NCBI RefSeq assembly: GCF_027497355.1
Contig: NZ_CP114909.1
Span: 2,356,001 to 2,420,000, forward strand
DNA length: 64,000 bases
Origin: Micromonospora sp. WMMA1947
GTDB lineage: Bacteria > Actinomycetota > Actinomycetes > Mycobacteriales > Micromonosporaceae
Direction: 5' to 3'
Position 1 is the stretch's first letter; each line of letters begins with the position of its first letter. The translations under genes and the position numbers were made by a program. Shown here one piece after another: positions 49,199 to 61,767 of the stretch. The notes beneath the pieces were generated by a model. That model was not told the DNA's origin. It saw only the letters and a list, made by a program, of their open reading frames with translations, and ran no database searches.

Positions 49199-51442
49199 TC
49201 AGGACCGGCCGGCGGCGTACGACTCGAGGTGCGCGAGTTGCACCGGGTCCAGCGAGGGCCGGACACGGTTCCGGGCCGCCTCGACGTGCGCGGCGGTCAC
49301 CGTGCTCGCCTCCAGCGACTCCCGCATGGCGGCCAGCGCCGCCTCCCGGATCAGCGCGGCGCAGTCGGCGGCGGAGAAGCCGTCCAGCTCGGTGCCGAGC
49401 GCGTCGAGGTCCACGTCCGGGGCGAGCGGGACGTCCCGGGCGGAGGCGCGGAGGATCTCCGTGCGGGCCGGGCCGTCCGGTGGCGGCACGTAGACGAGGC
49501 GTTCCAGCCGGCCGGGGCGCAGCAGCGCCGGGTCGACCAGCTCCGGCCGGTTGGTCGCGCCGACCACCACCACGTTGCGCAGCGCCTCCACGCCGTCCAG
49601 TTCGGTGAGCAGCGCCGCCACCACCCGGTCGGTCGTGCCGCCGTCGGTGGCCTGCCCGCGTACCGGGGCCAGCGCGTCCACCTCGTCGAGGAAGACGAGC
49701 GTGGGCGCGGCCTGGCGGGCGCGGCGGAACAGCTCCCGGACCGCCCGTTCGCTCTCACCCACCCACTTCGAGAGCAGCTCCGCGCCCTTCACCGACAGCA
49801 CGTTGGCCCGCCCGGACCCGGCCAGCGCGGTCACCAGGTAGGTCTTGCCGCAGCCGGGCGGGCCGTAGAGCAGCACCCCACGCGGCGGCGTCACGCCCAG
49901 CCGGGCGAACGTGTCCGGATAGGTCAGCGGCCAGAGCACCGACTCGGTGAGCGTCTGCTTGACCTCGTGCAGCCCGCCCACGTCGTCCAGCGTCACCGAC
50001 GCCAGCTCCAGCGTGGACGCCGACATCGTGGTCGGGCGGACCACTTCCAGCGCGGCGGTGAAGTCGGCCATCGCCACCGTCGGCGTCTCCGCCGTCTTCT
50101 GCCGCAGCGCCGCGCGGACCCCGGCCTCGCGCACCAGCGCCGCCAGGTCCGCCGCGACGAACCCGGGCGTACGGGCGGCCACCTCGTCCAGCCGGACGTC
50201 ACCGGCGAGCGGCACCTCACGGGTCAACACCGTCAGCTGTTCCCGGCGCAACGCCGCGTCGGGCAGCGGCACGGTGATCCGCAGCGCGAGCAGGTCCGGG
50301 CCGCGCAGCGCCGGGTCCACCGCCTCGGGGCGCCCGCTGGTGCACACCACTGCGGCGCCGGCCCGCAGCGTCTCGGCCACCACCTGGCGGAACACCGTGG
50401 CCAGCGGACCCGGCTCGTCGGCCGGGGCGATCGACTCCACGTCGGTGACCAGCAGCACGGCGGGACCACCGGCGCGTACGGCCGAGGCCGCCTCGCGCAG
50501 CCGGCGGGCCGCCGCGTCGTTGCTGAGCGCTGCCAGTTCCGGTGCCCAGAGCGGCCGGACGCCCGCACCGACCTTTGCGGCGACGGCACGCACGAGCGCG
50601 GACTTGCCCGAGCCGGCCGGGCCCTCCACCAGCACGCCGAGCGAGACGGTGGTGCCGAGCCGGCCCAGCACCTCGCGGTGGTGGAAGCCCAGGTCCAGCA
50701 GTTCGGTCAGCTCCTCGGCCTGGGCGCGCAGGCCGGGCAGCTCGTCCACGTCGGGCGCGTCCTCCGGGCCGAGCAGGTCCCCGGCGGCTCCCGTTCCGCC
50801 CGACGCGATGGAGGGGGCGGCGTCCCGCGCGGTGGAGGCCGAGGTCGCCGGGCCGGAGCCGCGGGTGGCGGGGCCGTGTTCCCAGCCCACCACCGTGTCC
50901 ATGGTGACGAGTGCGCCGACCGCCGGTTCGGCCGACACGACGGTGAGCAGCGTGCTGGTCCAGGCGTACCCGACGGAACTGGCGAGACTGCGCCGCGCGG
51001 CCTCGATCAGGCCGCGCACGGCGGCGTCCGGCAACACGTCCTGCGGCAGCAGCGAGACGTCGTCCCCGGCGGTGACCATCTTGCCGAGCAGCGCGAGCCG
51101 CAGCATCTCCGGCGGGACCGCGGCGACCACCGCAGCCGGGCCGGACAGGGTGAGCCGGCGTGCCGGGGTCGCCGGTAGCGGGCTCACCGTGACCTGGCCG
51201 CCGGCCCGCAGGCCGAGGTTGCCCAGGAGCAGGTCGTCGGCGTGCAGCAGGGCGCCGCTGGTGCTCGCCTCGGCGGCGGCCGCGATGCCGGCGGTGACGC
51301 GCCGGCCGGTGAGGCGTACCGGGTCGCCGGGGCGCAGCGCCAGCGCGGTGAGCACCTCGGGGTGCAGGCGCACCACGCCGCGACGGGCGTCGAGCGCGGC
51401 CGGCCGCAGCGTCGCGGTCAGGGTCAGGTCGGGTTCGGCCAC
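49199..51442 (-). CDS. CDC48/p97-like AAA ATPase with degenerate first AAA site
   Basis: This 747-residue ATPase has a CDC48 N-domain (double-psi barrel, about 8-95; RRGVVRLHPEVLTALALRPGDPVRL), a variable region, and two AAA modules. D1 has Walker A GPAGSGKS (274-281), but its Walker B reads LLVTDVES (D334, no adjacent Glu). D2 has complete Walker A GPPGCGKT (527-534), Walker B LVFLDEVDA (D586, E587) and arginine fingers in LLRPGRLERL. Such proteins unfold or remodel substrates, possibly with the proteasome in actinobacteria. GTG 51442 has a leaderless TACTGT box 6 bases upstream. Confidence 0.93.
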   Translation of the reverse strand: MAEPDLTLTATLRPAALDARRGVVRLHPEVLTALALRPGDPVRLTGRRVTAGIAAAAEASTSGALLHADDLLLGNLGLRAGGQVTVSPLPATPARRLTLSGPAAVVAAVPPEMLRLALLGKMVTAGDDVSLLPQDVLPDAAVRGLIEAARRSLASSVGYAWTSTLLTVVSAEPAVGALVTMDTVVGWEHGPATRGSGPATSASTARDAAPSIASGGTGAAGDLLGPEDAPDVDELPGLRAQAEELTELLDLGFHHREVLGRLGTTVSLGVLVEGPAGSGKSALVRAVAAKVGAGVRPLWAPELAALSNDAAARRLREAASAVRAGGPAVLLVTDVESIAPADEPGPLATVFRQVVAETLRAGAAVVCTSGRPEAVDPALRGPDLLALRITVPLPDAALRREQLTVLTREVPLAGDVRLDEVAARTPGFVAADLAALVREAGVRAALRQKTAETPTVAMADFTAALEVVRPTTMSASTLELASVTLDDVGGLHEVKQTLTESVLWPLTYPDTFARLGVTPPRGVLLYGPPGCGKTYLVTALAGSGRANVLSVKGAELLSKWVGESERAVRELFRRARQAAPTLVFLDEVDALAPVRGQATDGGTTDRVVAALLTELDGVEALRNVVVVGATNRPELVDPALLRPGRLERLVYVPPPDGPARTEILRASARDVPLAPDVDLDALGTELDGFSAADCAALIREAALAAMRESLEASTVTAAHVEAARNRVRPSLDPVQLAHLESYAAGRS

Positions 51443-53210: not shown

Positions 53211-53671
53211 TGCTGTACGGCGTTCTTCAGTTCGGCTATCAGGCGCGGACTCAGGGCACCGCCGGCGCGGCCGGCGAACAGCGTCATCTCGTACGCCACG
53301 GTGCCCAGGTTCGCCGTGCGGTCGGCGACGACGCCGAGTACCGAGCCGCTGCTGATCGCGCTGATCAGCAGGTATCCCTCGGCCATGTCGACGATCACCC
53401 GGTTGAGCGCGCCTAGTGCGTACCAGCTCGCGGCACCGCCGGCGAGGCTCGTCATGCCGGAGACCACCGCGGCGAGTCGTTCCGCGTTGGACCGGTCCTT
53501 GATCGCGGACATGGCCATCAGCAGCCCGTCCGAGGAGACCGCGATCGCCTCCATCACCCCGGCGGTGCTGGAGGTGAACGAGTCGAGCAGCCAGTTGAAG
53601 GTGCGTGCCTCGGGACTGAGGTCCCCTGTGGTGCTCTGTTCGACGTTCTCGTGGAGGAAGGGGCTGGTCAC
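53207..53671 (-). CDS. cvnB: Conservon roadblock/LC7 protein CvnB
   Basis: The 154-residue roadblock/LC7-fold protein (about 22-125; FNWLLDSFTSSTAGVMEAIAVSSDGLLMAMS...LGALNRVIVDMAEGYLLISAISSGSVLGVVADRTANLGTVAYEM) is the MglB-like regulator thought to act on the CvnD GTPase. GTG 53671 overlaps the cvnA stop (GTGA). Confidence 0.95.
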   Translation of the reverse strand: MTSPFLHENVEQSTTGDLSPEARTFNWLLDSFTSSTAGVMEAIAVSSDGLLMAMSAIKDRSNAERLAAVVSGMTSLAGGAASWYALGALNRVIVDMAEGYLLISAISSGSVLGVVADRTANLGTVAYEMTLFAGRAGGALSPRLIAELKNAVQQ

Positions 53672-56445
53672 CGTGATGGGTCCTCTTCGTAGCGGCGGTC
53701 GGTACTGACTTCGCGCAGAGCACGGGCGACGCCCGCCTCGAACTCGCTGATCCGGTTGCGGACCTCGACGGGGTCGCCGGGGTCGGAACTGGTGGGTGGC
53801 ACGGACTGGGTCGGTGCCACGGACAGGTTCGCGCCCGGCACTCGGCGGCTGAGCCGGGGCCGTTCCGCCGCCGGGGGCGTGGGATCGACCGCGCCCTCGG
53901 CCCGTCGTACGCCGTCCTGGAACGCCTCGACCAGTGCTCGGACGCTCGACGGATCCGCCGGTACGCCGATCAGCGGCCCGCCGGTGGCCGGTCCGGCCGG
54001 ACCGGCGGGTGGGGCAGGTGGAGCAGGTGGGGCGGCCGGCAGGTTCGCGCCGGGTACCCGTTGCCGGATCGGCGACCGGGTACCGGGCCGGCCGGCGGGC
54101 GGGCCGACCGGGTTGGGTCCGGTCGGCGCCGGCACGGCGGCCGGCCCGGCCGGTGCGGGCGGGCGGGCGGCACCGGGCGGCGGCGCGAGCGCCGGACGGT
54201 GCTGCGGCGCGACCCCCGGACCGTGCTGCGGTGCGAGCGCCGGACGGGTGGCCGGCGGTGACAGGGTCGGGCCGGTCGCCGGCCCGGCGGCCGGGGGAGC
54301 GGCCGGGGCCGGGCCGGCGACCGGGGTCGGCGGGGCGAGGTGCGCGGGACGCGCCGGCGGTACGGCCGACGGCGGCCAGGCCGGCGGCGGACCGCCCGCG
54401 CTCGGGCCGTGGTCCTCGGCGGGCTCCGCGGTGTCGGCCTGGTTGCCGAAGGCGTTCCACGGGTCGCCGCTGGACATGCTGCGGGTGGCCCGGCTGAGCA
54501 GTTCGGCGTCGAAGCCGGTCGGCGCCTCGGCGGCCGGTGGCTCCGGGGCGTGGGTGCCGGGCACGGCGGCCCGGCCGGCGCCGACGCCGACCGGCTCGGG
54601 CCGGCGGATCACGAGCGAGGCGCCCGGGATCTCCAGGGCCGCGGTGACGCCGCCACCAGGGGTGTGGCTGAGCCGGACGCTCCAGCCGTGCCGGCGGGCC
54701 AGCCGGCCGACCACGAACAGGCCGAGTACCTCGGTCGGGGCGAGGTCGAGGCGTTCCCGCCGGGTGAACCGGGCGTTCTCCTCGGCCATCCGGTCCCCGG
54801 TCAGGCCGATGCCGTGGTCGACCACGACCAGCCGGGCTCCGCCGTCGGTCAGCTCACCGGTCACCACCACGCGAGTGTGCGGCGGCGAGAACGAGGTGGC
54901 GTTCTCCATCAGCTCGGCGAGCGTCAGCACCAGGTCGCCGGCGATGGCGGGGGCCGCCGCCACGCCGGGCGGGACCTCCACGTCGACGCGGGTGTAGTCC
55001 TCGATCTCACCGAGCGCGAGCCGGACCACGTCGGCCAGCGGGACCGGCGCCACGTGACCGTCCGAGCCGGTGGCGCCGGAGAGCACCACCAGGCTGCCCG
55101 CGTTGCGGCGCAACCGGCTGGAGATGTGGTCCAGCCGGTAGAGGTGCTCCAGGCGGCCCGGGTCGGTCTCCTGCCGTTCCAGCCGGTCGATGAGCGCGAT
55201 CTGGCGGCCGACCAGGTTCTGCGTACGCCGGCCGACGTGGCCGAACATCTGCGCCACGTTGCGCCGCCCGGCGACCTGCCGCTCGACCAGGCGGGCGGCG
55301 GTGTGCTGCACCCGGTCGAACGCGCGGGCCAGCTCGCCGATCTCGTCCCGGGCGCTGACCTCCACCGGGTCGAGGCGTACCGGGGGGACCGTTTCGGACT
55401 CGTCGTCGGCGACCCGGGTCAGCTCGGCCTCGGTGACCCGGGCGACCCGCTCGGCGGAGCGGGTCAGCCGGCTCAGCGGCCGGGCGACCGTCCGCGCCAC
55501 AGTCATGCTCAGCAGCACCACGACGAGCAGGATGGCCGCCGCCGCCAGGCTGACCAGCCAGGCCGCGGTCAGGGCCTCCCGTTCCCGGGCGCGGGTCTCC
55601 GCGATGACGTCCGCGACGACCTTCTTCTCCACGAACTGGCCCAGCGTGATCATCGACCGGGCCGAGGGGAACAGCACGTCCAGCGGCACCGGCGCGATCG
55701 CTCCGACCGGGTCCCGGAGGCTGTCCACCAGGAACGTCGGGCTGGTCCGGGCGGCCACCGCCGCGTCGTCCAGCTCGGCCACCTTCAGCTGCTCGGGCGT
55801 GATCAGCTTGCGGAACCGCCGGTTGTCGACGTTGAGCCCCGCCATGCACGCCACGAACGACCGCGCCACCAGCGGATCGCCCGTCGCCTTGACCAGCACG
55901 ATCTGGGTGGTGCACGAGCTCAGTGCCTCGTCGACGCGCAGCAGCGCGTCCAGGGCGAGCACCTGCCGTCCGGCCGCGGTGTCGGTGTCCACCTGGAAGG
56001 GCAGCCGCAACGCGTCGATCAGGGCGGTGTCGACCTCGCCGAACACGGTCAGGATCTGCTGCGGCGTGGCCCGGCCGGCGAGCGTGGCGTTCCGGACGTC
56101 CTCCAGCCGGCGTACCCCGTCGAGGCTCTCCCGGACCGGCGCGGGCAGCGACTCGGCGCGTAGGTCGGCGACCCGGTCGTCGACGGTGGCCGACTTCTGG
56201 ATCAGCTCGGTGCGGCTCACCCGCCCGAGCAGCAGACCGACCGAGAGCAGGCGTTCCTGCTGCATGTCCTGGACCAGGCTGCCGACCCGGCTGGCGATGC
56301 GGACGGTCTCGGCGGTGTCGGCGGCCCGCTGGGCCGTGGACACCCGGTCGATGACGACCGGTACGGCCAGCCCGACCATGCTGAGCAGGGGGATGATCAC
56401 CAGCAGGGCGAGCTTGCCCCGGATGCGTAACTTACCGAGCAGCAT
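53668..56445 (-). CDS. cvnA: Conservon sensor kinase-like protein CvnA
   Basis: The 925-residue membrane protein has two helices (about 11-32 and 290-320) flanking a nitrate/nitrite-sensor-type (NIT) extracellular helical domain. A HAMP-like segment (about 320-400), a dimerisation helix region with LDHISSRLRRNAGSLVVL, and a HATPase domain (about 500-620; ELMENATSFSPPHTRV, VVDHGIGLT, GLFVVGRLARRHGWSV) follow. The remaining approx. 300-residue tail is Pro/Ala-rich with repeated PGANL motifs. Phosphorylation and a response regulator are not expected in conservons; it is thought to recruit CvnB-D. ATG 56445 has GGAGG and overlaps the upstream sensor gene by 14 bases. Confidence 0.94.
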   Translation of the reverse strand: MLLGKLRIRGKLALLVIIPLLSMVGLAVPVVIDRVSTAQRAADTAETVRIASRVGSLVQDMQQERLLSVGLLLGRVSRTELIQKSATVDDRVADLRAESLPAPVRESLDGVRRLEDVRNATLAGRATPQQILTVFGEVDTALIDALRLPFQVDTDTAAGRQVLALDALLRVDEALSSCTTQIVLVKATGDPLVARSFVACMAGLNVDNRRFRKLITPEQLKVAELDDAAVAARTSPTFLVDSLRDPVGAIAPVPLDVLFPSARSMITLGQFVEKKVVADVIAETRAREREALTAAWLVSLAAAAILLVVVLLSMTVARTVARPLSRLTRSAERVARVTEAELTRVADDESETVPPVRLDPVEVSARDEIGELARAFDRVQHTAARLVERQVAGRRNVAQMFGHVGRRTQNLVGRQIALIDRLERQETDPGRLEHLYRLDHISSRLRRNAGSLVVLSGATGSDGHVAPVPLADVVRLALGEIEDYTRVDVEVPPGVAAAPAIAGDLVLTLAELMENATSFSPPHTRVVVTGELTDGGARLVVVDHGIGLTGDRMAEENARFTRRERLDLAPTEVLGLFVVGRLARRHGWSVRLSHTPGGGVTAALEIPGASLVIRRPEPVGVGAGRAAVPGTHAPEPPAAEAPTGFDAELLSRATRSMSSGDPWNAFGNQADTAEPAEDHGPSAGGPPPAWPPSAVPPARPAHLAPPTPVAGPAPAAPPAAGPATGPTLSPPATRPALAPQHGPGVAPQHRPALAPPPGAARPPAPAGPAAVPAPTGPNPVGPPAGRPGTRSPIRQRVPGANLPAAPPAPPAPPAGPAGPATGGPLIGVPADPSSVRALVEAFQDGVRRAEGAVDPTPPAAERPRLSRRVPGANLSVAPTQSVPPTSSDPGDPVEVRNRISEFEAGVARALREVSTDRRYEEDPSR

Positions 56446-57613
56446 CGAACGGCCTCCACCGATCGGCGTCGCCACCGTGTCCCACCGCGACCGGCTGGCG
56501 GTCGGCGTCGGACGCGGCGGGCGGCGGGGCGGCGTGGACGGTCGGCGCCGGTCCGGCAGCGGCCGGCTCCCGTCCGGTCGGTGCGGTGCCCCGGGACCGG
56601 TCCCGGCGCGCCGCGACCACATGCAGCGCCACGATCCCGGCGATCAGCGCCACCGCCGCCCCGGCGGCGATCCGGCCGAGCAGCCGGTCCCGCTCGAGGG
56701 CCTCGAGCCGTTCTCTCAGCAGCTTGTCGAGCTGGTCGAGGATGACGGTGCGGAGCTGCTTGGCGGCGTTCTGCGCGCTGAGCCCGGCGCGGGTGAGCTG
56801 GTCGGTGCCCGGGGCGGACCGGCCGGCGCCGGGCGCCGAGTAGACCGAGAACGTCTCGAGTGAACGCTGGTAGGTGTCCAGCGGGGTGAGCACGTTGGCG
56901 CCCAGTTCGGTGCTCTCCGAGTTGTCCACCGCCGACCGCAGGTCCGCGACCAGGTCGGTGGCGGGGCCGAGCGCGGCGACCCGCAGTTCGGCCAGCTCCG
57001 CGCCCGTCCGCGCGCGGTCGGCGGCGGGGCGCTTGGCGGACAGCCGGGCCAGGTCGACGAGGCGGCCGGCCAGCACCGTCGCGGTGGGCAGGTCCCCACC
57101 GATGCCGTCCTGGAGGAAGAACGAGTCGGAGCGGGGGTCGCGGATCAGGCCGGAACTCTCCCGCACCTTGCGGTAGAGCGCCAGGAGCAGGTCGGACGCC
57201 TCGCCGTAGGCCCGGTACGCCGACTCGGCGTCACCGAACCCGCGGTCCGGCAGCGCCTCCAGCTTGGCCCGCAGCCCGGCCCAGCGCTCGTGGGTGCGCA
57301 GTTCGTCGCCGACGGCGCTGTCCACCGCCGCGACGCCCTCGATGGCGGTGGCGAGCGAGGCCCGGGAGACGGCCCCCTCGGCGACGGCGATGGCCTGGGC
57401 CTCCACCAGGGAGTCGGTGATCGGCCCGAGGGCCCGCAGGTAGCGGACGCCGAGGCGTTCCCGGCTCACCAGGTCGTGGTCGTCGGCGTAGTCGCGTTCG
57501 GCCTGGACGAAGATCAGCCCGAGCGGGGCCAGCAACGCCAGCACCAGAACCAGGGCGAGCGTACGGCCCGGTACGGCGGGCCGCCGACGGACCCGCGGCG
57601 CGGGGACTGTCAT
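56432..57613 (-). CDS. Membrane sensor-like protein heading the conservon
   Basis: The 393-residue protein has a first helix (about 18-40), an extracytoplasmic all-helical region of about 280 residues, and a second helix (about 325-345) followed by a short Pro/Ala-rich cytoplasmic tail without any signalling domain. The extracytoplasmic part resembles helical-bundle sensor domains of chemoreceptors and NIT proteins. Its stop lies 14 bases inside cvnA, so it is translated as part of the same operon. A ligand-sensing subunit for CvnA is the natural inference. ATG 57613 follows GGAGGAG. Family not named with certainty. Confidence 0.8.
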   Translation of the reverse strand: MTVPAPRVRRRPAVPGRTLALVLVLALLAPLGLIFVQAERDYADDHDLVSRERLGVRYLRALGPITDSLVEAQAIAVAEGAVSRASLATAIEGVAAVDSAVGDELRTHERWAGLRAKLEALPDRGFGDAESAYRAYGEASDLLLALYRKVRESSGLIRDPRSDSFFLQDGIGGDLPTATVLAGRLVDLARLSAKRPAADRARTGAELAELRVAALGPATDLVADLRSAVDNSESTELGANVLTPLDTYQRSLETFSVYSAPGAGRSAPGTDQLTRAGLSAQNAAKQLRTVILDQLDKLLRERLEALERDRLLGRIAAGAAVALIAGIVALHVVAARRDRSRGTAPTGREPAAAGPAPTVHAAPPPAASDADRQPVAVGHGGDADRWRPFDAAR

Positions 57614-57985
57614 GGTGTGTCTCCTCCGGCGACGGCGGGGCGATCGGTGCCCCGGGAGGTCGCCGTACGCAGTCCCGTGCACCGGACCGGAAAAGTAGCC
57701 GAACCGGACGCGGGTGAGACCTCGGCCGATGAGTCGGCTTCACGTCAGTCCATTTTGGGTGACCGTGTGTCAGGGCGAAAGGTACGTAGCGTGTGATCGT
57801 GTTGCCGAGAAATGACATCGACGATGGTTTGCGCCCTAGATGTGAATTCACATGATCCGAATTCGCCGCGCTGGGATGCTCTGGACCTTTGGCGGATGAC
57901 GCACGCTACGCGACGAACGGTGCAACCGGACAGACGTACGGCGGATCTCAGCGAATGCTCAGCCGCCGGCCCGTACCGTGTGCGC
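57614..57985. promoter_or_regulatory. 372-base divergent interval between conservon and hydrolase-ABC operon
   Basis: The interval contains AT-richer stretches (57740-57780 and 57810-57865) likely to hold both promoters. It also holds a perfect 14-base palindrome ATGTGAATTCACAT (57840-57853) and the leaderless TACCGT box at 57974-57979 for the downstream gene. No coding sequence is convincing; an in-frame ATG at 57812 would add 58 non-conserved residues. Confidence 0.6.
57840..57853. promoter_or_regulatory. Perfect palindrome ATGTGAATTCACAT
   Basis: A 14-base perfect palindrome containing an EcoRI-type GAATTC centre, unusual in a GC-rich genome. It is located midway between two divergent operons and may be an operator for either. 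It resembles a CRP site only partially, because the spacer is 2 rather than 6 bases. Confidence 0.45.
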
Positions 57986-60850
57986 ATGAGATCAACCGCC
58001 GCGCGGCTCCGGCGCGCCCTGGCCGGCCGTCCGCGCCGCACCGTCGCCGCCGTGGTGGTGGTCGTCCTCGTCGCCGCCGCGCTGGTCTGGGCGGCCCGGC
58101 CGCAGGGCTCGGACTTCCGGACCGAGTCGGCGCTGGTGACCGTACGCTCCGGCCCTTCCGGGGACGAGCCGGTGGACCTGGACACCACGCTCTACCTGCC
58201 GGAGGGCGCCTCGTCGTCGAACCGGGTGCCGGCGGTGCTGCTGGCGCACGGCTTCGGCGGGACCAAGGACTCGGTCCGCTCCGACGCCGAGGACCTGGTG
58301 GCCCGCGGGTACGCGGTGCTCACCTGGACCGCCCGCGGCTTCGGGCGCAGCGGCGGCCAGATCCACCTGGACAACCCCGACTACGAGGTGCGGGACGCGC
58401 AGCGCCTGCTCGACCGGCTGGCGCAGCGGCCGGACATCCGCCTCGACGCGGCCGGCGACCCTCGGGTCGGTGTGGTCGGTGGCTCGTACGGCGGCGGCCT
58501 GGCGCTGCTGCTGGCCGCGCGGGACCAGCGGGTCGACGCGATCGTCCCGATGATCACCTGGAACGACCTGTCCCGCGCCTTCCTGCCGGAGAGCACCGGC
58601 CGGCAGCCCACCGACGGCGTGTTCAAGAAGGGCTGGGCCGGCATCTTCTTCGGTGGCGGCGGCAACGCCGGCTCCGGTCCGGCCGGGCTCTCCGGGGCCA
58701 CCGCCGCCGCGCCGGAGGGCGCGCCCGAGTCCGCCGGTCCGCCGAGCCCGCAGCCGGGCGCCGGCCCGGGCACCGGCTCCGGTCGCGCGCCGGCCGGCGC
58801 CGCCGACCCGTCCTGCGGCCGCTTCGCCGCCGACGTCTGCGCCGCGTACCTGCGCATCGCCACCACCGGCCGGGCCGACGCGGCGGCGGTCGAACTGCTG
58901 CGCCGGTCGTCGCCGGCCGGAGTGCTGGACCGGATCAAGTCCCCGACGCTGCTGGTCCAGGGCGAGGCGGACACGCTGTTCCCGCTGGCCGAGGCGGACG
59001 CCAACGCCCGGGGCATCGCCGCGGCCGGCACGCCGGTGCGGGTCGCCTGGTTCACCGGCGGCCACGACGGTGGCTCCGGGCCCACCTCCGACTCGGACCG
59101 GGTGAAGTTCCTGACCGCGCAGTGGCTGGACCACTACGTCAAGGGCGACGGGGCGGCCCCCGGCGACACGTTCACGTTCTCCCGGATCGCCGGTTTCGAC
59201 GCGCTCGACCGGGGCCTGGTGGCGACCGGCTTCCGCATCGCCGACTACCCCGGCCTGGCCGGGCAGGAGCGCCGCGAGGTGACGCTCGCCGGGCCGCCCC
59301 AGCCGGTCGCCGTACCGCCGAACGGCAACCCGGCGGCGATCTCCTCGGTGCCGTTCGCGGGCGCGCTCGGCTCGCTGCTCGACGGCGTGGCGGGGGACAT
59401 CCCCGGCCAGCACGCGCGCTTCGAGTCGGCGCCGCTGGACGAGCCGGTCGACGTGGTGGGCGCGCCCACGGTGCGGATCAGGGCGGCCTCACCGACCGGT
59501 GAGGCGGTGCTGTTCGTGAAGCTCTACGACGTGGACCCGCAGGGCGCGTCCACGCTGCCGTCCGGCCTGGTCGCGCCGGTGCGCCTGACCGGCCTGCCGG
59601 CCACCGTCGAGGCGGCCACGCCGGTCACCGTCACGCTGCCGGGGATCGTCCGGCGGGTCGAGGCCGGGCACCGGCTGCGGCTCGTGGTGGCGACGTCGGA
59701 CCAGGCGTACGCCTCGCCGGCCGAACCGGCGGTGCTCACCGTGGCGCTCGCGGACGGACCGCTCGCGCTGCCCACCGTCGACGCCACGCCGATCCCCACC
59801 ACCGCCACGATCTGGCGCTGGGCGCTGGCCGGCCTGCTCGCCGTGATCGTGGCCGGGCTCGTCGTGGTCGTGCTGCTCACCCGCCGCCGGCACCGCCGCC
59901 AGGACGACTCCGTGCACCCGGAGTACGCGGGCGTCCCGCTCGCCGTGCGCAACCTGCGCAAGGAGTACGCGGACGGGTTCGTCGCGGTCTCCGACGTGGA
60001 CTTCGAGGTGCACCCCGGTCAGGTGGTCGGCCTGCTCGGGCCCAACGGCGCGGGCAAGACGACCACGCTGCGGGTGCTGATGGGGCTGACCCAGCCCACC
60101 GCCGGGGAGATCTACGTCTTCGGTCACCGGCTGGTGCCGGGCTCACCGGTGCTGTCCCGGATCGGCGCGCTGGTCGAGGGGCCGGGCTTCCTGCCCCACC
60201 TGTCCGGCCTGGACAACCTGAAGGCGTACTGGCGGGCGACCGGGCGGCCGTGGGAGGACGCGCACTTCGACGAGGCGCTGGAGATCGCCGGCCTGGGTGA
60301 CTCGGTGCACCGGCGGACGAAGAAGTACAGCCACGGCATGCGGCAGCGGCTGGCCATCGCCCAGGCCATGCTGGGCCTGCCCGAGCTGCTCGTGCTGGAC
60401 GAGCCGACGGACGGGCTGGACCCGCCGCAGATCGCCGAGATGCGCCGGGTGCTCCAGCGCTACGCCACCGACGGCCGGGCGGTGCTGGTCTCCAGCCACC
60501 TGCTGGCCGAGGTGGAGCAGACCTGCACGCACGCGGTGGTGGTGAACAAGGGGCGGATCGTGGCGTCCGGCCCGGTGGAGGACATCGTCGGCGAGTCGCC
60601 GAGCGTGCTGTTCGAGGTGAGCGACCCGGACGCGGCGCGTACGGTGCTCGACCGGCTCGACGGCGTACGGGTGTTGCCCGACACCGAGGGCGGGCTGGTG
60701 GTCGACACGAACGGCACCGCCCGCAGCGAGGTGGTGGCCGAACTGGTCCGGGCCGGCATCGGGGTGGACCGGGTGGTGCCCCGGCGCCGCCTGGAGGACG
60801 CGTTCCTCGCCCTGGTGGGCCAGAACTCTCGGGGAAGCGGGGACCGGTGA
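57986..60850 (+). CDS. S15/CocE-type hydrolase fused to ABC transporter ATPase
   Basis: This 954-residue protein joins two enzymes across the membrane. After helix 1 (about 18-40), an extracytoplasmic alpha/beta hydrolase (about 55-370) carries the triad S167 (GGSYGGG), D329 (GEADTL) and H360 (GGHDGG). A PepX_C-like beta domain (about 470-600; FVKLYDVDPQG) follows. Helix 2 (about 610-632) leads to a cytoplasmic ABC ATPase (about 650-890) with Walker A GPNGAGKT (685-692), signature YSHGMRQRLAIA and Walker B LVLDEPTDGLDP. The next gene encodes the ABC-2 permease. Hydrolysis of an exported ester or peptide coupled to its own transporter is inference. ATG 57986 has a leaderless TACCGT box. Confidence 0.93.
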   Translation: MRSTAARLRRALAGRPRRTVAAVVVVVLVAAALVWAARPQGSDFRTESALVTVRSGPSGDEPVDLDTTLYLPEGASSSNRVPAVLLAHGFGGTKDSVRSDAEDLVARGYAVLTWTARGFGRSGGQIHLDNPDYEVRDAQRLLDRLAQRPDIRLDAAGDPRVGVVGGSYGGGLALLLAARDQRVDAIVPMITWNDLSRAFLPESTGRQPTDGVFKKGWAGIFFGGGGNAGSGPAGLSGATAAAPEGAPESAGPPSPQPGAGPGTGSGRAPAGAADPSCGRFAADVCAAYLRIATTGRADAAAVELLRRSSPAGVLDRIKSPTLLVQGEADTLFPLAEADANARGIAAAGTPVRVAWFTGGHDGGSGPTSDSDRVKFLTAQWLDHYVKGDGAAPGDTFTFSRIAGFDALDRGLVATGFRIADYPGLAGQERREVTLAGPPQPVAVPPNGNPAAISSVPFAGALGSLLDGVAGDIPGQHARFESAPLDEPVDVVGAPTVRIRAASPTGEAVLFVKLYDVDPQGASTLPSGLVAPVRLTGLPATVEAATPVTVTLPGIVRRVEAGHRLRLVVATSDQAYASPAEPAVLTVALADGPLALPTVDATPIPTTATIWRWALAGLLAVIVAGLVVVVLLTRRRHRRQDDSVHPEYAGVPLAVRNLRKEYADGFVAVSDVDFEVHPGQVVGLLGPNGAGKTTTLRVLMGLTQPTAGEIYVFGHRLVPGSPVLSRIGALVEGPGFLPHLSGLDNLKAYWRATGRPWEDAHFDEALEIAGLGDSVHRRTKKYSHGMRQRLAIAQAMLGLPELLVLDEPTDGLDPPQIAEMRRVLQRYATDGRAVLVSSHLLAEVEQTCTHAVVVNKGRIVASGPVEDIVGESPSVLFEVSDPDAARTVLDRLDGVRVLPDTEGGLVVDTNGTARSEVVAELVRAGIGVDRVVPRRRLEDAFLALVGQNSRGSGDR

Positions 60851-61767
60851 TGGCGGGTTCGTCTGTGGCATCGTCGCCTGGTGGCGGCACGTCCGGTACG
60901 GCGGCGCCGGGCCCCGGCGGCGCGGCGGCCGGTTACCGGCCCTCGGCCACGCTCCCGTTCGCGGCGGAGTTCCGGCGGCAGGCGTCGCGCCGGCGTACCC
61001 AGCTCGCGCTGGGCTTCATGGTGCTGCTGCCGCTGATCATCCTGGTGGCGTTCCAGTTCGACGCCGGGGACGACGACGGCGGCGGGCGGGGCGAGTTCTC
61101 CAGCCTGGCCGACCTGGCCACCTCGGGCGGGCTCAACTTTACCCTGTTCTCGATCCTGGTGTCCGCGTCGTTCCTGCTGGTCGTGGTGGTGGCGCTGTTC
61201 TGCGGCGACACGGTGGCGAGCGAGGCGAGCTGGGGCAGCCTGCGCTACCTGCTGGCGGTGCCGGTGCCCCGGGCCCGGCTGCTCGCGGTGAAGCTGGTCG
61301 TCGCGCTCGCGTACTCCGGACTGGCCCTGCTGTTGCTCGCCGGCACCGCGCTGCTCGCCGGCACGCTCCGGTACGGCTGGAAGCCGCTGAGCAGCCAGGT
61401 GTCGGCGGAGCTGGCCCCGGCCGACGGGTTGCTACGGCTGCTCGGCGTGCTCGGCTACCTGGCGGTCGTGCTGCTGGTGGTGGCCGGGCTGGCGTTCCTG
61501 CTGTCGGTGACCACCGATGCCGCGCTGGGCGCGGTCGGCGGGGCGGTGCTGCTCTGGATCCTGTCCAGCATCCTGGACCAGATCACCGCGTTGGGCGGGC
61601 TGCGGAACCTGCTGCCGACCCACTACAGCAGCGCCTGGCTGGGGTTGCTGTCGACGCCGATGCAGACCGACGACGTGGTCAAGGGCGCGTTCTCGGCGGT
61701 CGTCTACGCCACGTTGTTCTGGGGCGTGGCCTTCTGGCGTTTCACCCGTAAGGACGTCACGAGCTGA
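60850..61767 (+). CDS. ABC-2 permease partner of the hydrolase-ATPase fusion
   Basis: The 305-residue membrane protein has a Gly/Ala-rich cytoplasmic N-terminus (about 1-45) and six helices, the first at about 52-68. A hydrophilic external loop (about 70-95; FDAGDDDGGGRGEF) follows the first helix. It is translationally coupled to the fusion gene by TGATG (alternative GTG at 60847, overlapping GTGA). Together they form a complete exporter whose ATPase subunit carries an external hydrolase. Substrate unknown. Confidence 0.88.
   Translation: MAGSSVASSPGGGTSGTAAPGPGGAAAGYRPSATLPFAAEFRRQASRRRTQLALGFMVLLPLIILVAFQFDAGDDDGGGRGEFSSLADLATSGGLNFTLFSILVSASFLLVVVVALFCGDTVASEASWGSLRYLLAVPVPRARLLAVKLVVALAYSGLALLLLAGTALLAGTLRYGWKPLSSQVSAELAPADGLLRLLGVLGYLAVVLLVVAGLAFLLSVTTDAALGAVGGAVLLWILSSILDQITALGGLRNLLPTHYSSAWLGLLSTPMQTDDVVKGAFSAVVYATLFWGVAFWRFTRKDVTS

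Follow-up and report, generated by a model that had tools for sequence, protein, structure and literature searches.

The window analyzed here is a 64,000-nucleotide stretch of the genome of Micromonospora sp. WMMA1947 (NZ_CP114909.1, positions 2,356,001-2,420,000), and all coordinates below are numbered within it. At 57986-60850 on the plus strand lies a single open frame of 954 codons that joins a predicted outward-facing hydrolase to an ATP-binding cassette (ABC) ATPase, and it is followed directly by the gene of an ABC-2 type permease. The parts of this gene pair, including two predicted transmembrane helices (TM1 and TM2), are as follows.

57986-60850, plus strand: fused gene, 954 residues, in the order TM1, extracytoplasmic alpha/beta-hydrolase, PepX_C-like beta-sandwich, TM2, ABC ATPase.
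58040-58096, plus strand: TM1 (residues 19-37), an anchor or signal sequence at the N-terminus, with positive charge on its N-side (from hydropathy and flanking charge).
58106-59185, plus strand: alpha/beta-hydrolase domain (about residues 41-400) with S167, D329 and H360 and the cysteine pair C277/C285 (from Pfam and alignment).
58661-58798, plus strand: Gly/Ala/Pro-rich loop (about residues 226-271), variable among homologues and mostly of low model confidence (from alignment and model).
59186-59785, plus strand: linker and PepX_C-type beta-sandwich (about residues 401-600; from Pfam and model).
59804-59902, plus strand: helix 607-639, which includes TM2 (613-631) and, on the cytoplasmic side, a stretch rich in Arg (from hydropathy and model).
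59933-60820, plus strand: ABC ATPase domain (about residues 650-945; from Pfam, motifs and model).
60850-61767, plus strand: cognate ABC-2 permease, 305 residues counted from its ATG, with GTG 60847 as an alternative start (from Pfam and the TGATG overlap).

Three Pfam families are recognized in the fused chain, each above its cut-off: Peptidase_S15 at residues 63-197 (63.1 bits, cut-off 23), PepX_C at 474-580 (59.9 bits, cut-off 22.5) and ABC_tran at 669-808 (104.2 bits, cut-off 25). An earlier first-pass annotation of this DNA had placed an S15/CocE-type domain, a PepX_C-like domain and an ABC ATPase in one chain, and this agrees with the Pfam result. Residues 167, 329 and 360 read S, D and H, as had also been stated, and they follow the Ser-Asp-His triad order of Peptidase_S15/CocE-NonD hydrolases. 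The ATPase half carries a Walker A motif (GPNGAGKT from residue 685), a signature motif (SHGMRQR from 782), a Walker B motif (LLVLDEPT from 801) and the H-loop residue H838. The hydropathy profile shows two hydrophobic stretches, at 19-37 and 613-631; the membrane helix described earlier is present as TM2, but the number is two rather than one. A homologue (P0003) with 97% identity is likewise 954 residues long and covers 100% of the query. Within the genome of the window, where 150 of 194 candidates were scored, 145 matches were obtained; one spans the whole query, and the remaining 144 start at query residue 597 or later, that is, in the ATPase part. The Gly/Ala/Pro-rich loop is missing or short in three Streptomyces-like copies (L045-L047).

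The downstream gene matches ABC2_membrane_2 (50.1 bits, Pfam cut-off 27.2). The stop codon of the fused gene (TGA, 60848-60850) shares its A with the permease ATG at 60850, forming TGATG at 60848-60852, so that the earlier description of an ABC-2 permease as the next gene with this overlap is accurate; the GTG start would give a four-base overlap instead. At all 55 fused loci, which were picked from match lists rather than sampled at random, a permease homologue on the same strand immediately follows the fused gene, as determined by a profile search of all frames, simple gene calling having chosen an antisense frame in several loci. In 46 of these 55, the fused stop is overlapped by a start codon in the permease frame; the nine without overlap are L166, L179, L190, L193, L196, L214, L215, L216 and L218. 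For the permease of the window, the matches are to ABC2_membrane families only, and none is of the FtsX/MacB type (Pfam, E-value up to 0.01).

Homologues were collected as 356 distinct proteins among the matches listed in three protein searches, which together with the window protein make a set of 357 (65 clusters below 80% identity). All 356 listed homologues match each of three segments of the window protein: the hydrolase, the PepX_C region and the ABC part. Catalytic residues look intact in both enzyme halves: S167, D329 and H360 are unchanged in 357 of 357 aligned proteins, as are the sampled ATPase residues G690, K691, T692, S782, G784, Q787, D805, E806, D812 and H838. Eight more copies, read from genome DNA and 44-52% identical to the window protein, also keep all three residues of the hydrolase triad. 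The fusion was read from DNA at the 55 loci, which substantiates the earlier claim of a genuine single polypeptide, and because it is conserved among homologues and loci it is not a chance event.

No locus examined had the hydrolase in one gene and a closely related ATPase in another gene next to it. Unfused hydrolases were examined at 22 loci, around some of which the fetched stretch was short (about 1.2 kb per side at L055); an ABC match was absent from the fetched stretch in 20 and weak in two. One of the weak matches lies on the opposite strand about 2.7 kb away (59 bits, L048), and the other on the same strand about 1.1 kb upstream (42 bits, L052). Fused ATPases outside the family of the window genome score at least 300 bits, for which reason these two look like other ABC proteins. 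A further locus (L205), in a draft genome with a completeness of 74 (G257), has the hydrolase piece in one frame and the ATPase piece in another; it is either a broken copy or the product of assembly errors, and was omitted from both the fused (55) and the unfused (22) counts.

The predicted placement of the hydrolase draws on two features, the charges that flank the two helices and a cysteine pair that is conserved. The mean number of Lys and Arg residues is 5.8 ahead of TM1 and 2.5 behind it, and 0.4 ahead of TM2 and 4.5 behind it. The ectodomain cysteines are exactly C277 and C285 in 347 of the 357 proteins, and the other 10 have none. Disulfides form outside the cytoplasm, and a lone conserved pair of cysteines is what one would expect to see if a disulfide were present. 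The unfused set, where 9 of 17 proteins have a cysteine at the first position and 9 of 17 at the second, cautions against over-reading the pair. On these grounds it is strongly inferred that both chain ends lie inside and the hydrolase outside, in line with the external hydrolase predicted earlier. Given that TM2 is retained, the ectodomain would be outside whether TM1 is cleaved or kept.

The closest solved relative of the ectodomain is the lipase PaL (8yzn, Z score 32.4), ahead of cocaine esterase (CocE, 27.6), alpha-amino-acid ester hydrolase (27.0) and X-Pro dipeptidyl peptidases (26.9 and 26.0). PaL (8yzn/8yzo) shares the alpha/beta-hydrolase and beta-sandwich fold over the ectodomain as well as the order of the triad motifs, and it is also closest by profile, but it is a 505-residue chain without an ATPase part and has an identity of 22-23%. 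CocE, alpha-amino-acid ester hydrolase and X-Pro dipeptidyl peptidases resemble the ectodomain in the S15 and PepX_C domains, the Ser-Asp-His triad and the beta-sandwich. However, the N-terminal domain of the X-Pro dipeptidyl peptidases is absent from the fused protein: the model, from residues 42-43 on, aligns only with the part of the chain that starts at residue 163 (1lns) or 179 (6nff), and no PepX_N match was found (Pfam, E-value up to 0.01). CocE has a tyrosine in its oxyanion hole. At residue 90, which is assumed to be equivalent to that tyrosine, the set of 357 has phenylalanine in 354, tryptophan in two and tyrosine in one. The S15/CocE label thus stands at the Pfam level, but the closest solved relative is a lipase, and for this reason the substrate of the predicted hydrolase is better guessed to be an ester than a peptide. 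A 2024 classification of alpha/beta hydrolases, in the portions of its text available, pairs PF02129 with PepX_C and PepX_N and makes no mention there of an ABC fusion (PMC11878206).

The first-pass annotation had also proposed looking for the order hydrolase-TM-ABC across actinobacteria, and fused forms were found at the level of family, order, class and phylum. The query was the part from the hydrolase to TM2, and genomes of Actinomycetota were searched. In the family sample 74 of 81 genomes match (E-value at most 1e-40), each with one fused-type place. The frame is at least 844 residues in 71 of the 74 and 684, 583 and 433 residues in the remaining three; two of the matching genomes have a second place of unfused length, and the ABC half was confirmed in all 20 loci fetched. 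In the order sample 65 of 81 genomes match, and 62 with a frame of 849 residues or more are left after removal of two genomes with a place of unfused length only (G236 and G265) and of G257 with its broken copy; the 13 loci fetched from these 62 are all fused. One family of the order sample (f2) has the unit in one of eight genomes. The class sample yielded matches in 14 of 60 genomes, 11 of them shown to be fused by domain search, and the phylum sample in 33 of 149 (E-value at most 1e-20), nine of them shown to be fused and five of those outside the class. Holders among the matches listed include Micromonospora, Streptomyces, Salsipaludibacter, Euzebya and Actinoplanes. A genome of 1.3 Mb (G321, completeness 99) retains both the fusion and the permease, and its genus-mate G337 has no match. 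Since the unit occurs in 74 of 81 family genomes and is retained in a 1.3-Mb genome, it is probably not tied to one biosynthetic cluster alone. Whole-genome searches found no match in the three genomes of one genus of the family (g129; G159, G197 and G217), which marks a possible loss of the fused unit. In a contig scan with alignment A1, three of 80 kept loci match both halves; matches at the others are confined, or nearly confined, to the ATPase part, since the search patterns corresponded to motifs of the ATPase.

Two further occurrences were recorded in these searches. A fused gene and its permease lie on a Tsukamurella plasmid (L206), where the annotation calls the first an alpha/beta fold hydrolase (2376 bases) and the second an ABC transporter permease. 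One genome of the class sample (G313) carries two different fused genes (L213 and L214), each with its own permease.

The fused forms group as one clade. In a tree of the ABC domain, 34 fused proteins stand on one side of a branch and 86 unfused relatives on the other, and in a tree of the ectodomain 33 fused proteins are set apart in the same way from 17 unfused hydrolases; the branch has a value of 99 in the Shimodaira-Hasegawa-like approximate likelihood ratio test (SH-aLRT) in each tree. Both trees are quick, unrooted and without bootstrap, and a single origin of the fusion is therefore supported but not proved.

The ATPase half resembles that of ABC-2 exporters, with complete Walker A, signature, Walker B and H-loop motifs and an ABC2_membrane partner. 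DrrAB-type and lantibiotic-protection-type exporters share these motifs, the ABC2_membrane permease and the overlapping pair of one ATPase and one permease. The ATPase subunits of such two-gene exporters are generally cytoplasmic, whereas the fused subunit has two membrane helices and a predicted outside enzyme, and it scores below both subfamily cut-offs in NCBIfam (DrrA, 164.0 bits versus 312.45; lantibiotic protection, 169.6 versus 309.75). Peptidase-containing ABC transporters (PCAT) hold a cytoplasmic cysteine peptidase, permease and ATPase in one chain. They likewise bear their own hydrolase, but here it is a serine hydrolase, predicted to lie outside and joined to the ATPase only, and a Pfam scan of the fused protein gave no match to the C39 cysteine peptidase. 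As in the mechanotransmitters FtsEX and MacB, the ATPase could control an extracytoplasmic hydrolase; the difference is that the permease here is of the ABC-2 type and the hydrolase lies within the ATPase chain. Identity with an anti-phage system was considered and rejected, as library matches were limited to the ATPase part (best mad3, E-value 4.5e-25) and were taken to reflect generic ATPase similarity.

The most economical reading of the gene pair is a two-gene ABC-2 exporter in which the ATPase subunit would also cut an ester on the outer side of the membrane, a tentative proposal to which slightly less than even confidence is attached. In the 2+2 assembly that we infer, two fused subunits would pair with two permeases, the ATPase domains would dimerize in the cytoplasm, and TM1 and TM2 would hold the serine esterase above the permease exit at the outer face. 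ATP would drive a lipid-like or acylated small substrate containing an ester through the permease, and the tethered esterase would cleave it on exit, with the result that the product would be released or matured and export would become one-way. An exporter processing an ester or peptide at the surface had been suggested earlier; of the two substrates the ester is now favored and the peptide less so. On a wider reading, the pair could represent a distinct class of ABC machine with a conserved envelope function across Actinomycetota, in which a membrane-spanning ectoenzyme is the energy-coupling subunit and TM2 links the ATP cycle inside to ester cleavage outside, either joining transport to surface processing in a single cycle or gating the enzyme across the membrane; this reading is possible but less likely than not. 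In any case, a widespread and usually single-copy actinobacterial ATPase subunit that appears to span the membrane and bear an intact-looking outside enzyme is a compact setting in which to ask whether catalysis outside can be coupled to ATP turnover inside, and it points to an envelope or export function that is unexplored in antibiotic-producing bacteria.

Several points weigh against the exporter proposal. The set of 357 consists of the best-scoring listed matches and is biased to full-length relatives. The ten cysteine-less proteins are at least 90% identical to one another, so their joint cysteine loss may be a single event, on which the all-or-none pattern may rest. The structure model of the permease (predicted local distance difference test score, pLDDT, 46.7) is too poor for use. 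The neighbors indicate no cargo, as ten representative neighbor proteins scanned have no common functional theme. Finally, the two active sites, both fully conserved in the set of 357, fit a gated-hydrolase machine equally well.

Such an ATP-gated surface hydrolase, in which the ABC cycle would move nothing and would switch the outer esterase through TM2 and the permease in an FtsEX-like manner, is the main rival, although an unlikely one. The continuous predicted helix 607-639 connects the beta-sandwich side to the ATPase side and is a plausible mechanical link. However, the partner matches ABC2_membrane families only, and ABC-2 permeases normally transport. The sensor suggested in the first-pass annotation, in which hydrolysis would gate transport, is neither favored nor disfavored by these results. 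Somewhat less likely again is a detoxification unit that expels and hydrolyzes foreign ester-containing or acylated compounds, adding inactivation to efflux. The fold is esterase-like and the best-scoring ATPase models, both far below cut-off, are those of the lantibiotic-protection and daunorubicin-resistance subfamilies. A core role better fits a unit that is usually single-copy, nearly universal in the family and kept at 1.3 Mb, which makes a resistance role less likely, and no recognized resistance protein was present among the ten neighbor proteins scanned. Hydrolysis-coupled uptake or salvage, in which the surface enzyme would cut an outer ester and the transporter import the product, is distinctly improbable. 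An outside enzyme and a membrane transporter are the parts to be expected, and 9 of 11 unfused relatives have a hydrophobic stretch before the hydrolase domain, which would be expected of secreted or anchored enzymes, but the same ten neighbors include no substrate-binding protein, and an ABC-2 type permease with its ATPase is typical of exporters. A frame error or annotation artefact that joins two genes has a negligible chance, as its sole sign is the separate frames of L205, with none in the window, and it is already refuted by the 55 fused loci and by the 356 of 356 homologues matching all three segments.

Database names of the listed homologues are generic, as had been claimed, with source annotations such as alpha/beta fold hydrolase, CocE/NonD family hydrolase or ABC-2 type transport system ATP-binding protein. 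In the text retrieved from it, the open-access PMC literature, which leaves most subscription papers outside its coverage, yielded no description of a hydrolase-ABC ATPase fusion and no described function, consistent with the earlier statement that none was known. This includes the available parts of PMC3123327, PMC6009599, PMC4416010, PMC11878206, PMC8062868 and PMC6593405, the last a glycoproteome paper whose available text contains nothing recognizable as the fused protein. Two leads were set aside on the passages available. For SCO3110/SCO3111, the papers treat other ABC pairs of a different family (one FtsX-like, one pair linked to bacitracin resistance). For a Streptomyces orthologue near msdA, prompted by iolD-like and mmsA-like neighbors, the passage names MsdA only.

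Neighbors of the fused gene in Micromonosporaceae and their kin include a CDC48-like AAA ATPase, a threonine-synthase-like enzyme, PaaN, GNAT proteins, GroEL and a NapA-like protein, and those at Streptomyces-like loci include iolD-like, mmsA-like and VWA genes. In the window, divergent neighbors at 53668-57682 encode a NIT-HAMP-HATPase sensor kinase (984 residues) and a 416-residue protein without a Pfam match; kin of both adjoin the fused gene in eight of the 20 fetched family loci (L160-L162 and L164-L168). Further upstream, at 49199-51442 on the minus strand, lies a CDC48-like double AAA ATPase of 747 residues, whose cluster is present in 22 of the 64 loci compared, the window included.

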